Shown piece after piece: positions 10,895-36,025 of a stretch of 36,025 bases of DNA; position 1 is the stretch's first letter; every line of letters begins with the position of its first letter. The stretch is from positions 1 through 36,025 of the forward strand of contig JAFGRJ010000022.1 of the NCBI GenBank assembly GCA_016935235.1, in the 5' to 3' direction. This stretch comes from Candidatus Cloacimonadota bacterium (GTDB lineage: Bacteria; Cloacimonadota; Cloacimonadia; Cloacimonadales; TCS61). The position numbers were made by a program, and so were the translations under genes. The notes under the pieces are model-generated. The model was not told where the DNA came from. It ran no database searches and was given only the letters and a program-made list of their open reading frames with translations.

Positions 10895-11785
10895 ATGAAA
10901 AAGATATTTGCAGGATTATTATTTTTAATGGTGCTGCTGGTTTTTTTCAGCTGCAGCCAACAGGGAGAGCTAACCGATCCAGGAACTGATCAGCTTGATG
11001 GATCTATCTATCAACGTCCTGAATTCATTGAGACCAGGACTGATGCCGAAATCGAACGTTATCTGTTGAAAGCATCGGATAGCTATACACCGGAAAGAAA
11101 GAAACCTCAACCTCCAAATCCACCGGATCCTCCCGAAGATCCTAATCCCAATCCGGCTCACAAGTATGCTTACATAGTCGGTATTTCGGATTATGATGGC
11201 ACTCAAAACGATCTGCAGTATTGTGACGACGATGCTCAGGACTGGAAGAATTATTTGCAGACCCAGGGTTTCACAATCCAGTTTGATATAGATCAGAATG
11301 CTACCGCAAGCGCCATTGAATCTGGCCTGCAGTGGCTGATGACCAGCGCTGCGCCCGGTGATGAGATTGCCTTCATATATTCCGGTCATGGTGTTGATTA
11401 TGCACAATATGGAACCTGCATTATCTCCTGTGACCTTTATTATATCACCCATAGCTTCGTTATGGAGTATCTATCACTGTCCAATTGCACTAAGAAGATG
11501 GTGGCAATAGACTGCTGTTACGCTGGTGATTTTCTTGGTGACAGCGAAACAGGCATGATAGTTGCCACAGCTTCCACAAACAGCTATTCCTATGATGGCG
11601 ATGAAACAATGCAAAACGGAGTCTGGACATATTATTATATGGTCGCCTTGGTTGATAACGAAGTGATATTCAACGAAGATGCTGCCGGGTATGCCAAAAC
11701 CCAGATGAAAGCCTGGGGGAGGACATATCATGTCAGGGTCACTCCTGCTGTTAACGATGATTACGATGGATATTTCGACATATAA
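10895..11785 (+). CDS. Caspase-fold (peptidase C14) lipoprotein
   Basis: A 296-residue protein. It starts with a lipoprotein-type signal peptide whose Cys20 (FFSCSQQ) is the likely lipidation site. A variable acidic stretch and a Pro-rich linker (about residues 68-86) lead to a C14 peptidase domain from about residue 89. The domain has the first strand YAYIVGISDY, NDLQYCDDDA, the catalytic His165 in YSGHG and the catalytic Cys208 in DCCYAGDF. These are the His/Cys dyad motifs of caspases and metacaspases. The domain is expected in the periplasm or on the outer surface, tethered by lipid. The gene is alone, with an intrinsic terminator right after it. Substrate specificity and role are unknown. 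Confidence 0.87.
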   Translation: MKKIFAGLLFLMVLLVFFSCSQQGELTDPGTDQLDGSIYQRPEFIETRTDAEIERYLLKASDSYTPERKKPQPPNPPDPPEDPNPNPAHKYAYIVGISDYDGTQNDLQYCDDDAQDWKNYLQTQGFTIQFDIDQNATASAIESGLQWLMTSAAPGDEIAFIYSGHGVDYAQYGTCIISCDLYYITHSFVMEYLSLSNCTKKMVAIDCCYAGDFLGDSETGMIVATASTNSYSYDGDETMQNGVWTYYYMVALVDNEVIFNEDAAGYAKTQMKAWGRTYHVRVTPAVNDDYDGYFDI

Positions 11786-23252: not shown

Positions 23253-23354
23253 ACAGGTTTTTCTTGCCAGCAGAGATGGGATCCTTTTATCCTGTATTGG
23301 TTGAAGTCAGCACAGTATTCCTATAAAATATATCTCAGCATTGCAGGAGGCTAC

Positions 23355-23804
23355 ATGAAAAAATTACTCATGGTCTTTCTGGTAATATCAATCAGCTATT
23401 CAGTAAAGCCACTTTTCTCCGATATTAAAACTCCCCCGGAAACAGGCGAAATCTGTGGAGTTGTACTGAATGATGAAAACGTTGCCCTTCCCGGTTGTAT
23501 CGTACTCAGGGATGATAATGGCACAGGAGTCGTTACAGATGATGCTGGTTTTTTCAAGATGACGGCAGTCCCGCTGGGCAGCTACCGCCTGCTTGTATCC
23601 CGGGCTGGCTATAAAAAGCTGTCTCACTGGATCAAGGTGGAAGCCGATAAAATAACATACCTGGCTTTAGCCTTAACTCCGGATACTGCCAATTCCCACC
23701 AGAGTGATCCTCCCAGAAAAGTTCTGGTTAATCCTGAACGAACCGGTTCCTGGTGGATAGTGCATTTTGATGATGATGATATGCCTGTCTTCTCCCTGAA
23801 ATAA
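23355..23804 (+). CDS. Exported carboxypeptidase-regulatory-like domain protein
   Basis: A 149-residue protein started at the ATG at 23355, which follows GCAGGAGG; the track start (23301) is 18 residues upstream with no ribosome binding site. It has a signal peptide (MKKLLMVFLVISISYSVKPLFS) and one CarboxypepD_reg-like fold (about residues 32-108): ICGVVLNDENVALPGCIV, GVVTDDAGFFKMTAVPLGSYRLLVSRAGY. Such domains usually form the N-terminal part of TonB-dependent receptors or sit in surface proteins; here it stands alone with a short acidic tail. It follows the propeller gene by about 100 bp and is followed by a terminator. Confidence 0.8.
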   Translation: MKKLLMVFLVISISYSVKPLFSDIKTPPETGEICGVVLNDENVALPGCIVLRDDNGTGVVTDDAGFFKMTAVPLGSYRLLVSRAGYKKLSHWIKVEADKITYLALALTPDTANSHQSDPPRKVLVNPERTGSWWIVHFDDDDMPVFSLK

Positions 23805-23826
23805 CAGGGGAAAGATAAACATCATC

Positions 23827-23855
23827 TGAAATATAAGTGCCTTATATTTCATTTT
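23827..23855 (+). terminator. Intrinsic terminator after the secreted-protein pair
   Basis: TGAAATATAAG and CTTATATTTCA form a perfect 11-bp, AT-rich stem around a 3-nt loop, followed by four T residues. It lies 22 bp after the stop at 23804. The short T-run and AT-rich stem make it moderate in strength. Confidence 0.65.
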
Positions 23856-24094
23856 CTCCTGCCGGGAGAAGATGTCCCCGAATTATCGGGGTCAGATGAG
23901 GTGAATGACAGAAATCAGAACAGGGGATTATTTCACTTCCGGAATAAAGAAGCTGTTAAAATGGAATTCATTGCAACATACAAAAATTACGGGAATGTGT
24001 TTTTTTGTATTTTGCCAACTTCTTGACCTGTAATAAGTTAGAAAAATGCGGATTAGGCTGTATCTAAAAAATTTTTTTTTTGTTAAAATATTTT
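23854..24094. other. Gene-free stretch with two further tandem hairpins
   Basis: Right after the terminator come TTCTCC/GGAGAA (23854-23859 with 23865-23870) and CCCCGA-atta-TCGGGG (23876-23891, perfect 6-bp stem with a 4-nt loop). Together with the stem at 23827 there are three hairpins within 65 bp. The remaining sequence to 24094 is AT-rich with long T-runs and no open frame with a ribosome binding site. Confidence 0.45.
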
Positions 24095-24122
24095 TTGCAT
24101 TTTAAAAATTTCATGTTATATT
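24095..24122 (+). promoter_or_regulatory. Promoter of the Lys-rich mini-gene
   Basis: TTGCAT (24095-24100) and TATATT (24117-24122) are spaced by 16 bp within a strongly AT-rich tract. The predicted start of transcription lies about 20 bp before the ribosome binding site at 24140. Confidence 0.55.
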
Positions 24123-24150
24123 TCATTCATCTCATATATGGAGGTTTGAA

Positions 24151-24222
24151 ATGAAAAAGAAAGCTAAAGTCAAAAAAGAAAAACCAGTAAAAGCTCCTGA
24201 AACCAAAAAATCAGCCAAGTAG
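24151..24222 (+). CDS. Lys-rich 23-residue peptide (not in ORF track)
   Basis: The frame is ATG to TAG and encodes a 23-residue peptide starting MKKKAKVKKEKP and ending TKKSAK. About half of the residues are Lys, with Ala, Pro, Val and Glu between them, resembling the basic tails of histone-H1-like or ribosomal proteins. A strong GGAGG (24140-24144) lies 6 nt before the ATG. The unit has its own promoter upstream and an intrinsic terminator about 100 bp downstream, and nothing else in the transcript is coding. I do not recognise a family. It might bind nucleic acid (inference from charge only). The alternative is that the RNA, not the peptide, is the product. Confidence 0.6.
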   Translation: MKKKAKVKKEKPVKAPETKKSAK

Positions 24223-24243
24223 GCAGAAAGGTTCTTGCAACTG

Positions 24244-24275
24244 CAAACTGTAAGTTATTAGAATTCTGCAGTTTG
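24244..24275 (+). other. Hairpin in the 3' part of the mini-gene transcript
   Basis: CAAACTG (24244-24250) and CAGTTTG (24269-24275) pair perfectly across an 18-nt loop, between the stop codon and the terminator. It may stabilise the transcript or be part of a structured small RNA. Confidence 0.4.
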
Positions 24276-24320
24276 ATGGTTGTTAAGTAGAAAAATTTTA
24301 ACGTTTTAACAGGTTTGCAT

Positions 24321-24359
24321 AACCCCTCTCCGATGATGAATCGGGGCGGGGTTTTTTTT
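24321..24359 (+). terminator. Strong intrinsic terminator of the mini-gene
   Basis: AACCCCTCTCCGAT pairs with ATCGGGGCGGGGTT (14 pairs with one mismatch and one G-U) around a 5-nt loop, running into eight T residues (24352-24359). It is one of the two strongest terminators in the window. Confidence 0.92.
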
Positions 24360-24736
24360 ACTTTTGAAATCCTGAAAAACAAAATAGAGATATGAGCATG
24401 ATTTACTATATTTCATTATCAAAACTGAAACTGGCTCTAAATAATTTATATCTCAGGATGCCTCATACAATAAACAATCAGTATGAAGAGGACAACCAAA
24501 AACAAATTTCGCATGATAACCTCAATGTGCTTTAAAACAGTGAAAATATGTGACAATATTACTGAAAGAATTTAAAGTAAAAAATATGTGAAGATATTCT
24601 CCTGAAAATTTGAGATTGAGAGCAAATCGTATCATTTATGTCAGCAGTTTTTTCCTTTACAATTAAGGACGTTGACAATTTCTTACCCAGCCTGAGATTG
24701 AGTAAGGAAATGTGATTTTGCTGATTGAGGTATAAC
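24360..24736 (+). other. Leader region of alaS
   Basis: No gene is supported in these 377 bp. A consensus -35 box TTGACA lies at 24672-24677, with only a weak -10 (near 24694-24699), and GAGG at 24727-24730 serves the alaS ATG. No T-box core is visible. Confidence 0.4.
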
Positions 24737-28576: not shown

Positions 28577-31500
28577 ATGATGGACAAATCAGTTGATGAG
28601 GTTTTATCTGTTTATGTAACTAAGAATTTATCATTAGTCCGGGATATAATAGGCAAATTCAAGACGGATGAAAGTCAGATCATAGAAGTCATAGGCGATT
28701 CCGGATCAGGCAAGTCATTTATATTCAATAAACTTTCCCGGGAATTGAAACAGCTGAATATCGAACATAAAATATATATTCCCTATATATTTCATATAAA
28801 TCAGATAAAGCAGATTGTAAGCCTGATTACCGATATAACGGAAGAATATTTTCAGGATATAATCAAGCAGGCTAATGATATAGGGATTTCCACCAACAAG
28901 TACGATTTCTTTTATTTTCTGACCAGCAAAATTGAAGAGAGACGGCTTTTCAAAGTGAAGCATATCCTTATTTATGAAGGTTTCTATCTGGATAAATATA
29001 CTCTTGATTTCATCCAGTATCTGGTAGAATATTTCACTGAGGAGAAGGTGAATTTTGTTATTTTTACCAGGAGTGAAACCTATCCTTTCTCTGAAAAATT
29101 TCATATTAAGCAACCGAACCGGGAAGAGATAGCCGTGATACTGCAGTCATATACAAAGAATACCAACCTCAATTATGCTGTAGAGAGTGAATTGATACAA
29201 CGCATATCCGGTGGGAATCTATCCATTATTGCTCACATAATGGAAAAATATTTTGCAGATGGTGGTGAGTTCGACTTCACATCCCAGCTTGATCAGTCGA
29301 TCACCCTGGAAGGCATTTATGAGGAAGAGATTAAACGGCTCGATGAAGAAGAGAAGAAGTTGCTTTTTACGATTTTTCTGCTTGATACTGATACATCAGC
29401 CCTGAAGGAACTGTATGCAGGGGAGGATATTACCCTCCTGCTCGACAGCCTGATGAAACACAGGCTTATCTTTGCATTTGAAGGGAATTATCTGGTAAAA
29501 AAGGTTTCGGCAGTTCGTTCCTATTTCAATAAGCTGCCCCGGGTGAAGCAAAAACATTATTTCAAGCCTGTGATCAATAGACTGAAGCCAGCAGCAACCC
29601 GTCAGATGAAAGTATTCATCAAGGATTTCACCCTGGAGGACATAGAATTTCTGAGGGAATATTATTCTGGTATCCGAGATGCGGATGCACTGATCAATAT
29701 ATATGAAGCAGTCCTCACCCGGCAGAATCCTGTCGATAAAAAAGCAGAGATCCTGAAGCAGCTGGGAATATCCCATAAACAGAACGGACAGGAAGAACAG
29801 GCAATAGAAATATTTCGTAAAACCCTCAAGCTGTGCGTGGAGAATTCTCTTCCTGCTGAGGAAGTAGTCTATTACCTGGCGGAAACGCTTTTTTCTGTCA
29901 ATTCATCTAATTTTGCTCTGGAAATAATCAGGAAATATTCGCCGGAAAGCATAAATCTGGTAATGAAATGTCGTATCCTGCTGGTAAAAGCCGAGATTCT
30001 CATGGATATGGAGAAGTTCGATGATGCCCTGATGATTGTAAGTGATGTAAACTCAATTTCCGACGATATTGACAAGTCTCAGGCGCGTTATGCCATCAAA
30101 GCTAAGTTAAGGAAGATGAAGGGATTGATATATTATTACTCCAATGAATGGGGAAAGGCTCAGAGTGAATTCGAGGAAGCTGAGAACCATTATAAAAATA
30201 CCAACGATATCAAGGGGCTGGCAGCTGTCTACAATAATCTGGGCGGGCTTTCCATGCTGCAGGGTGACTGGGATAAGACGGAGGATTATTTTCTCAAGAG
30301 TCTGGATTATGAAAAAAAATTGTTCAGTTTAAGCGGTATATCTGGATGCTACAGTAATCTGGGATATCTGTACGAAGACAAGAACAATTATGAAAAATCT
30401 CTGGAATACCTGAATGAGGCATTGCGTATTCAGAAACTGCTGGGAGACCGTGATGTGATTTCTACCATCTATATCAATATTGGTGTTGCCTATATGGATA
30501 ACGGGAAATTCAAGGAAGCAGAGGAAGCCTTTAACAACTTACTGGAAATTTCCATTAAATTCAATCTTTACCGGAATCTTATTGCTGCCCTGAACAATCT
30601 GGGAGCCCTGTATTTCAAATCGGGAGACTGGAATCAAGCCAGGGACTTCTATGAGAGAGCCATCAAAAGGTCTCAGGATCATGGTTTCAGTGAAGGTATA
30701 TGTAAATCCTACAACAACCTGGGGGAGCTTTACGAGAAAAGGGGTGAATATATATTAGCCTTTGAGTGTTATTCCAAGAGCGAGGAATTAATCCCCAGCA
30801 TATCGGATGATTTTCTGAAAGCTGAACTTTTTGGCAATCTGGGCAGTGTTCTAACGTATCTTCATAAATTCAAGGAAGCTTATGGTTATCTGGTTGAGAG
30901 TTATGATTTCTTTAAAAATCTGAATGCCCGTGATAAGATAATTGAAGGTGCTGAGAAACAGGCATATTATTTCATTCAGACCAGGAATTATGAGAGTGCT
31001 AACTATTATCTCGACATAGCATTAAAACTGGCTGAGGAACTTAACAACAATTATCAGGTGGGAAGATGTCACTATCTTAAATCCATCCTGGAAAAAAACA
31101 ACCCGGAAACTGCTATTGAACATTTACAAAGGGCAATTCAGGAGTTTGTTAAATCCAGAAGCAATTATGATCTTGCTCTGGCAAACTATGAATTTGCCAT
31201 TTATCTCTTTGAAAAGGAAGAGTGGGAACAGGCATTGCAGTTGCTGAAAGACAACAAGAGTATCATCAAATCACTCGGCGCCATCAAATTTCTGGAAAAG
31301 AATGATATCTTCATAGATAAGATCGAGAAAAAATATGCTCTGGAGCTTAAGGAATCAAAAGAAGAAGAATCGCTGCTGAACAAATTCTACGAGATAACTC
31401 AGAATCTGAATAAGATTCTGGATTTTGATATTCTTCTAGATACTGCGCTGGACAGGCTGGTGGAATTCTCCGATGCTGACGGAGGGATCTTTTGCCTGTA

Positions 31501-32824
31501 TAAGAACCAGCTAGTGAAAGATTCCTGGGAATACATGATCCTGAACAATTTTTCCACAGCAGATAAGGATTTTTCTACTTTAATGAATTATATAGAAAAA
31601 ACCTTTTCAGAAAATACCATCTTGAATCTCAAACAACCCCAGGCCCTGCCAGAATATAATAACATCATTTCCTTTTCCCTTTCGGTAAGGAACGATAAAA
31701 AGGGAGTCATCTGCCTTTTCACCAAAAAGGGGGCCTATTACTTTACGGAGAGGATGTTCAATCTGCTCAGTGCCCTCTGCAATCAGATCGTGGTGATAGT
31801 GGACAATATATCCTACGAAAATCTGCAGAAGACTCATGCTGTTATCCGTGAAGAGCTTTCAACTGCCAGCACCTATGCCAATATTATCGGTAAAAGTAAG
31901 AAGATACAGGATATTTTCCAGGTAATAAACAAGATAAAGGATACACCGACAACCATTCTACTGGAAGGTCCCAGCGGTACCGGCAAAGAGCTCATTGCCA
32001 GGGCTATACATTTTAACAGCAACCGACGTAACAGCAAATTTGTTGCCCAGTATTGCGGCGCTCTTCCTGAAACCCTGCTGGAAAGCGAACTTTTCGGTCA
32101 TATTAAAGGCTCCTTCACGGGAGCAACCCATGATAAGAAAGGACTTTTTGAGATTGCCAACGGGGGTACTTTTTTCCTGGATGAAATAGCTGATATAAGC
32201 CTTTCCACACAGGCAAAACTCCTCCGTTTTCTTCAGGAAGGAGAAATCAAGAGGGTCGGTTCCACCAAGACCGAGAAAGTTGATGTACGTGTAATCTGCG
32301 CTACTAATGTACCTCTCAAGGAAAAAGTCGAAAAAGGAGAATTCCGTCTCGATCTTTATTACAGGCTCAATGTTATCAGGATCTATATCCCCTCACTCAA
32401 AGAACGTAAAACGGATATTCCACTGCTGGCGGTGCATTTTCTTGATAAATACTGCAAGAAGATTAACAAGAAAGTCAATGGCATCACCGATGAAGCCATG
32501 AAATATATGATGAATTACGACTGGCCCGGGAACATACGACAACTGGAAAACGAGATCGAACGTGCTGTCACCCTGGCTGAGAGTGATGTTTATATCAAGT
32601 CTTCCGACCTTTCGGAAGAGATATTCCGGTTCCAGGAAAATACCGAGACGATCAGCCTGCTGGAGAAGGAATCCCTGAAAGATGCGGTGGAAAAACTGGA
32701 AAGGGATATGATCCTGAAAACCCTGGAAGATAATAACTGGAACCAGACCAAAACGGCGCGGGAACTCGGTCTCAGCCGTCAGGGGCTGATCAAGAAAATT
32801 CAGAGATACAAGCTCGAAAAATAA
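28577..32824 (+). CDS. Multidomain sigma-54-dependent regulator: P-loop ATPase, TPRs, GAF, AAA+ and Fis HTH
   Basis: A 1415-residue cytosolic protein. The N-terminal STAND/AAA-like ATPase has Walker A GDSGSGKS (residues 40-47) and a LIYEGFYLD Walker-B-like strand. About ten TPR-like helical repeats follow (roughly 385-900), with clear units such as YNNLGGLSMLQGDWDKTEDYF. A GAF-like domain (about 940-1085) leads to a sigma-54 activator AAA+ domain with GPSGTGKE (about 1131) and a GSFTGA loop (about 1178; the usual form is GAFTGA), then FFLDEIAD. A Fis-type HTH (NWNQTKTARELGLSRQGLIKKI) ends the protein. Such proteins remodel RNA polymerase-sigma54. The start is either of two adjacent ATGs (28577 or 28580) after GGAGA. 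Target genes are unknown. Confidence 0.93.
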   Translation: MMDKSVDEVLSVYVTKNLSLVRDIIGKFKTDESQIIEVIGDSGSGKSFIFNKLSRELKQLNIEHKIYIPYIFHINQIKQIVSLITDITEEYFQDIIKQANDIGISTNKYDFFYFLTSKIEERRLFKVKHILIYEGFYLDKYTLDFIQYLVEYFTEEKVNFVIFTRSETYPFSEKFHIKQPNREEIAVILQSYTKNTNLNYAVESELIQRISGGNLSIIAHIMEKYFADGGEFDFTSQLDQSITLEGIYEEEIKRLDEEEKKLLFTIFLLDTDTSALKELYAGEDITLLLDSLMKHRLIFAFEGNYLVKKVSAVRSYFNKLPRVKQKHYFKPVINRLKPAATRQMKVFIKDFTLEDIEFLREYYSGIRDADALINIYEAVLTRQNPVDKKAEILKQLGISHKQNGQEEQAIEIFRKTLKLCVENSLPAEEVVYYLAETLFSVNSSNFALEIIRKYSPESINLVMKCRILLVKAEILMDMEKFDDALMIVSDVNSISDDIDKSQARYAIKAKLRKMKGLIYYYSNEWGKAQSEFEEAENHYKNTNDIKGLAAVYNNLGGLSMLQGDWDKTEDYFLKSLDYEKKLFSLSGISGCYSNLGYLYEDKNNYEKSLEYLNEALRIQKLLGDRDVISTIYINIGVAYMDNGKFKEAEEAFNNLLEISIKFNLYRNLIAALNNLGALYFKSGDWNQARDFYERAIKRSQDHGFSEGICKSYNNLGELYEKRGEYILAFECYSKSEELIPSISDDFLKAELFGNLGSVLTYLHKFKEAYGYLVESYDFFKNLNARDKIIEGAEKQAYYFIQTRNYESANYYLDIALKLAEELNNNYQVGRCHYLKSILEKNNPETAIEHLQRAIQEFVKSRSNYDLALANYEFAIYLFEKEEWEQALQLLKDNKSIIKSLGAIKFLEKNDIFIDKIEKKYALELKESKEEESLLNKFYEITQNLNKILDFDILLDTALDRLVEFSDADGGIFCLYKNQLVKDSWEYMILNNFSTADKDFSTLMNYIEKTFSENTILNLKQPQALPEYNNIISFSLSVRNDKKGVICLFTKKGAYYFTERMFNLLSALCNQIVVIVDNISYENLQKTHAVIREELSTASTYANIIGKSKKIQDIFQVINKIKDTPTTILLEGPSGTGKELIARAIHFNSNRRNSKFVAQYCGALPETLLESELFGHIKGSFTGATHDKKGLFEIANGGTFFLDEIADISLSTQAKLLRFLQEGEIKRVGSTKTEKVDVRVICATNVPLKEKVEKGEFRLDLYYRLNVIRIYIPSLKERKTDIPLLAVHFLDKYCKKINKKVNGITDEAMKYMMNYDWPGNIRQLENEIERAVTLAESDVYIKSSDLSEEIFRFQENTETISLLEKESLKDAVEKLERDMILKTLEDNNWNQTKTARELGLSRQGLIKKIQRYKLEK

Positions 32825-35948: not shown

Positions 35949-36025
35949 ATGGCCAAGGCAAAATTTCAGAGGACCAAGCCTCATGTTAATATTGGTACGA
36001 TAGGCCATGTAGATCATGGCAAGAC
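35949..36025 (+). CDS. tuf: Elongation factor Tu, N-terminal fragment (runs off window)
   Basis: The first 25 codons are MAKAKFQRTKPHVNIG followed by TIGHVDHGK, which is the start of EF-Tu with its P-loop GHVDHGK. EF-Tu carries aminoacyl-tRNA to the ribosome and is among the most abundant cell proteins. A long purine-rich ribosome binding site (GGAGGAG, 35940-35946) lies just before the ATG. The gene is cut by the window end. Not in the ORF track because it is short. Confidence 0.97.
   Translation, partial: MAKAKFQRTKPHVNIGTIGHVDHGK

Follow-up and report, generated by a model that had tools for sequence, protein, structure and literature searches.

The window, a stretch of 36,025 nt from the 2.2-Mb assembly of a Candidatus Cloacimonadota bacterium, contains a gap of 932 bases (23805-24736) between a 149-codon gene and alaS, the gene for alanyl-tRNA synthetase (AlaRS). 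This gap holds a mini-gene with a size of about 230 bases and a span of 24095-24359. In a comparison of AlaRS, the closest named relatives were Candidatus Cloacimonadota MAGs. The elements of the locus are as follows:

23355-23804, gene of 149 codons for a CarboxypepD_reg-like protein, with its own GGAGG at the start
24095-24122, + strand, predicted promoter of the sigma-70 type, TTGCAT, a 16-nt spacer and TGT-TATATT (sequence and consensus scan)
24095-24100, + strand, -35 element TTGCAT
24117-24122, + strand, -10 element TATATT, with TGT directly 5' of it (extended -10)
24140-24144, + strand, Shine-Dalgarno sequence GGAGG, 6 nt from the ATG (sequence; the same motif precedes real genes in the window)
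24151-24222, + strand, frame of 23 codons, MKKKAKVKKEKPVKAPETKKSAK, with its TAG stop at 24220-24222 (translation, composition test and background scan)
24234-24287, + strand, hairpin in the 3' UTR with more than 20 pairs, several of them G-U (RNA fold, -17.7 kcal/mol, z -3.1)
24321-24359, + strand, intrinsic terminator, a stem of 13-14 bp and eight Ts (RNA fold, -21.6 kcal/mol, z -4.8)
24737, ATG of alaS

This anatomy was read directly from the DNA. The first-pass annotation had described a TTGCAT-N16-TATATT promoter, a strong GGAGG at 6 nt, an ATG-TAG frame of 23 codons with about half Lys, an internal hairpin and a 14-bp terminator with eight Ts, and each of these was found in its place. 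The promoter, a predicted one, has the extended -10 in addition, the frame holds 11 Lys, and the terminator stem, running from 24321/24322 to 24352/24353, consists of 13-14 pairs around one mismatch. As the mini-gene occurs in a single copy in its own genome, it is not a repeat element. Elsewhere on the + strand of the window we observed a protein of 296 codons whose Peptidase_C14 domain is caspase-like and which also matches the PADLOC caspase model (10895-11785), a 1415-codon protein combining many TPR repeats with GAF, sigma-54 activator AAA and Fis-type HTH domains (28577-32824), and the apparent start of an EF-Tu gene with a GGAGG site (35949-36025), inside which the window stops.

The expression signals differ in their weight. 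The predicted promoter reaches 9 of 12 consensus matches, but since the same consensus scan yields 7 promoter-like sites in this 1-kb region against 3.8 expected, the promoter alone is weak evidence. A GGAGG located 4-9 nt 5' of an ATG marks mostly real genes, both in the window and in relatives. According to the pair probabilities the start codon is mostly open (77% unpaired); the GGAGG itself is only 28% unpaired, pairing in part with the start of the leader.

The encoded peptide contains 11 Lys, 2 Glu and no Arg, for a charge of about +9. After the initial Met it is built from K, A, P, V, E, T and S only, so that Val and that Met are the only strongly hydrophobic residues, and it is probably a disordered polycation. 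To judge how far such a unit departs from chance, the gap was subjected to 4000 dinucleotide shuffles. A GGAGG with an ATG and a frame of at least 15 codons arose in 1.3% of them; the same arrangement followed by a strong terminator within 170 nt downstream, or with a Lys content of at least 40%, arose in none of the 4000. The combination of signals in the mini-gene is thus no chance match. Note that Lys codons come cheaply here, as A accounts for 41 of the 72 bases of the frame and dinucleotide shuffles of its codons alone average 9.2 Lys, with the frame remaining open in 41%. These shuffles contain on average 3.5 residues of R, Q, N or I, and just 0.03% are confined to K, A, P, V, E, T, S, G and D, a residue set that was picked post hoc with the peptide already seen. 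In 404 kb of Cloacimonadota loci we counted about ten short frames with a Shine-Dalgarno sequence outside long frames, and MKKKAKVKKEKPVKAPETKKSAK is the sole Lys-rich one. As evidenced by anatomy and shuffling, the complete unit of about 230 nt that had been proposed in the first pass is well supported, as a prediction from sequence.

The proposal of a conserved lineage-specific protein, with conservation of the frame and of the ribosome binding site in relatives, is not supported by the comparison between genera; the relatives searched include no other genome of the window's own genus. The translated search detected no homologue of the peptide in 125 Cloacimonadota genomes, and the DNA search found none in 59 genomes, giving only weak and mostly A-rich matches, of which the ones looked at more closely proved to be stretches rich in A or Lys-rich segments of long proteins. 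As no homologue appeared in the 125 genomes, there is no evidence of purifying selection. Rfam, Pfam, NCBIfam and PHROGs returned no matches to the mini-gene or peptide, and searches of phage and plasmid DNA likewise found none. Several candidates were discarded: the lone translated match, in one relative (G058), is a fragment of a frame with 340 codons; the pattern GGAGG plus MKKK[A/T] retrieved from the 125 genomes long genes plus two frames of 21 codons that are unrelated in sequence; and matches in the PDB to zinc-finger linkers were short, low-scoring artefacts.

The syntenic site is more informative, as 23 biased residues give a homology search little power and the absence is firm only there. 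In the best-scoring relative (G001), AlaRS is 65% identical and the counterpart of the neighbouring BNR protein 55%; the gene for the latter shares a contig with alaS, and the gene order, with the ABC transporter first, is kept. This block of ABC transporter, BNR protein and alaS contains neither the mini-gene nor the 149-codon gene; the interval is instead taken up by another gene, about 400 codons long, and by about 400 bases whose sequence is unrelated, and BLASTN found no meaningful similarity. Other relatives with readable upstream sequence, their orientation checked, have no Lys-rich frame with a Shine-Dalgarno sequence before alaS. The interval between the BNR gene and alaS (23253-24736) is therefore variable across genera, holding the 149-codon gene and mini-gene here and, in G001 (L236), the unrelated gene with its roughly 400 codons. 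Either the mini-gene arose after these genera had separated, or the others have lost it or changed it so far that it is no longer recognisable.

We favor, with moderate confidence, the reading of the locus as a monocistronic orphan small-protein gene, whose product, probably a disordered polycation, most likely attaches to a polyanion through its charge. Transcription and translation of the mini-gene are what we infer from its signals: its own promoter would give an mRNA of about 230 nt, the strong Shine-Dalgarno sequence would direct the synthesis of the 23-residue polycation, and the stable 3' hairpin and the terminator would end and protect the message. The polycation would then bind DNA, rRNA or mRNA via its charge, in the manner of a free tail of the histone-H1 type or of a ribosomal protein. 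Nucleic-acid binding, although probable, is the weakest of all these inferences; it is suggested by the composition of MKKKAKVKKEKPVKAPETKKSAK, which is similar to that of H1-type tails and basic ribosomal peptides. The gene is best read as a young or fast-evolving orphan, and its structured 3' UTR could act as a small RNA.

This last property raises the question whether the RNA rather than the peptide is the relevant product, in a dual-function or purely regulatory small RNA that would act by base pairing of its structured 3' part, with the short frame as an extra or minor product. The 3' untranslated part is indeed structured (z -3.9) and the leader and coding part is not (z +0.8), and the several G-U pairs of the hairpin suggest pairing as RNA and not a DNA palindrome. 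The order of promoter, a frame of 20-30 amino acids, base-pairing region and terminator also resembles VcdRP of Vibrio, a dual-function RNA with a 29-residue frame for VcdP (PMC8672173). As predicted from its sequence, the mini-gene would likewise be a short unit with its own promoter, a 20-30-codon frame and a Rho-independent terminator, but in VcdRP the pairing site is C-rich and conserved, and targets are known (PMC8672173). For the present RNA, neither an Rfam match nor a convincing structural relative or homologous RNA with a conserved base-pairing region was found in the 125 genomes, which were searched with a two-hairpin model built from the single sequence. Foreign matches to this model (E 0.02 or worse) had no Lys-rich frame with a Shine-Dalgarno sequence upstream, with one side inspected and the strand not always matched. 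An mRNA with a good terminator requires no regulatory role, and we regard a small RNA as unlikely. A genus-specific version in which the 23-residue polycation helps the 3' region of its own transcript act on targets, as a self-encoded charge-neutralising partner, is very unlikely.

A fortuitous assembly or decaying remnant, in which an A-rich stretch happens to read as Lys codons and the terminator serves upstream transcription, would fit the A-rich sequence, the occurrence in one genome only and the lack of a counterpart at the syntenic site in G001. The shuffle tests, the strong and well-spaced Shine-Dalgarno sequence and a frame free of N, I, R, Q and internal stops speak against it, and we consider it rather improbable. 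A leader peptide with an attenuator, where ribosomes stalling at Lys codons would govern terminator formation ahead of alaS, is suggested by a Lys-rich short frame, hairpin and terminator following each other in that order 5' of alaS, but is very unlikely, because alaS is no lysine gene and its ATG lies 377 nt past the T-run with another promoter-like site between, because the terminator stem pairs almost completely, without a strong competing antiterminator in the pair probabilities of the kind that mutually exclusive hairpins require, and because relatives with readable upstream sequence have no such frame before alaS.

Among known systems, the orphan small-protein gene may be set beside the small basic ribosomal proteins bTHX/S31e, bS22 and bL36, which are very short and basic and which annotation often misses (PMC3353972). 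Its peptide is likewise very short and basic, but differs from them in being rich in Lys, Ala and Pro without Arg. No family profile of Pfam or NCBIfam matched it, although the sensitivity of HMMER is low for a peptide of 23 biased residues. The Lys/Ala/Pro-rich, histone-H1-like bacterial proteins Hc1 and AlgP have the same residue bias and are much longer; no sequence match between this type and the peptide was found. A viral contig (L188) carries a 26-residue Lys-rich frame, MKKKAKVKKPKVKKPIAKGKAKKGKY, that shares the first nine residues, the residue bias and a GGAGG site with the mini-gene, but is located directly 5' of another phage gene in an operon-like arrangement. This likeness is probably convergent, as the frame was found with a pattern that fixes its first six residues.

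The mini-gene is thus ordinary in kind and unusual in composition. Genes this short escape standard annotation, and a literature search retrieved no text mentioning both Cloacimonadota and small proteins. If translated, the mini-gene would be a clean case of an orphan microprotein equipped with a full set of expression signals; it would extend a known class modestly and involve no new mechanism.
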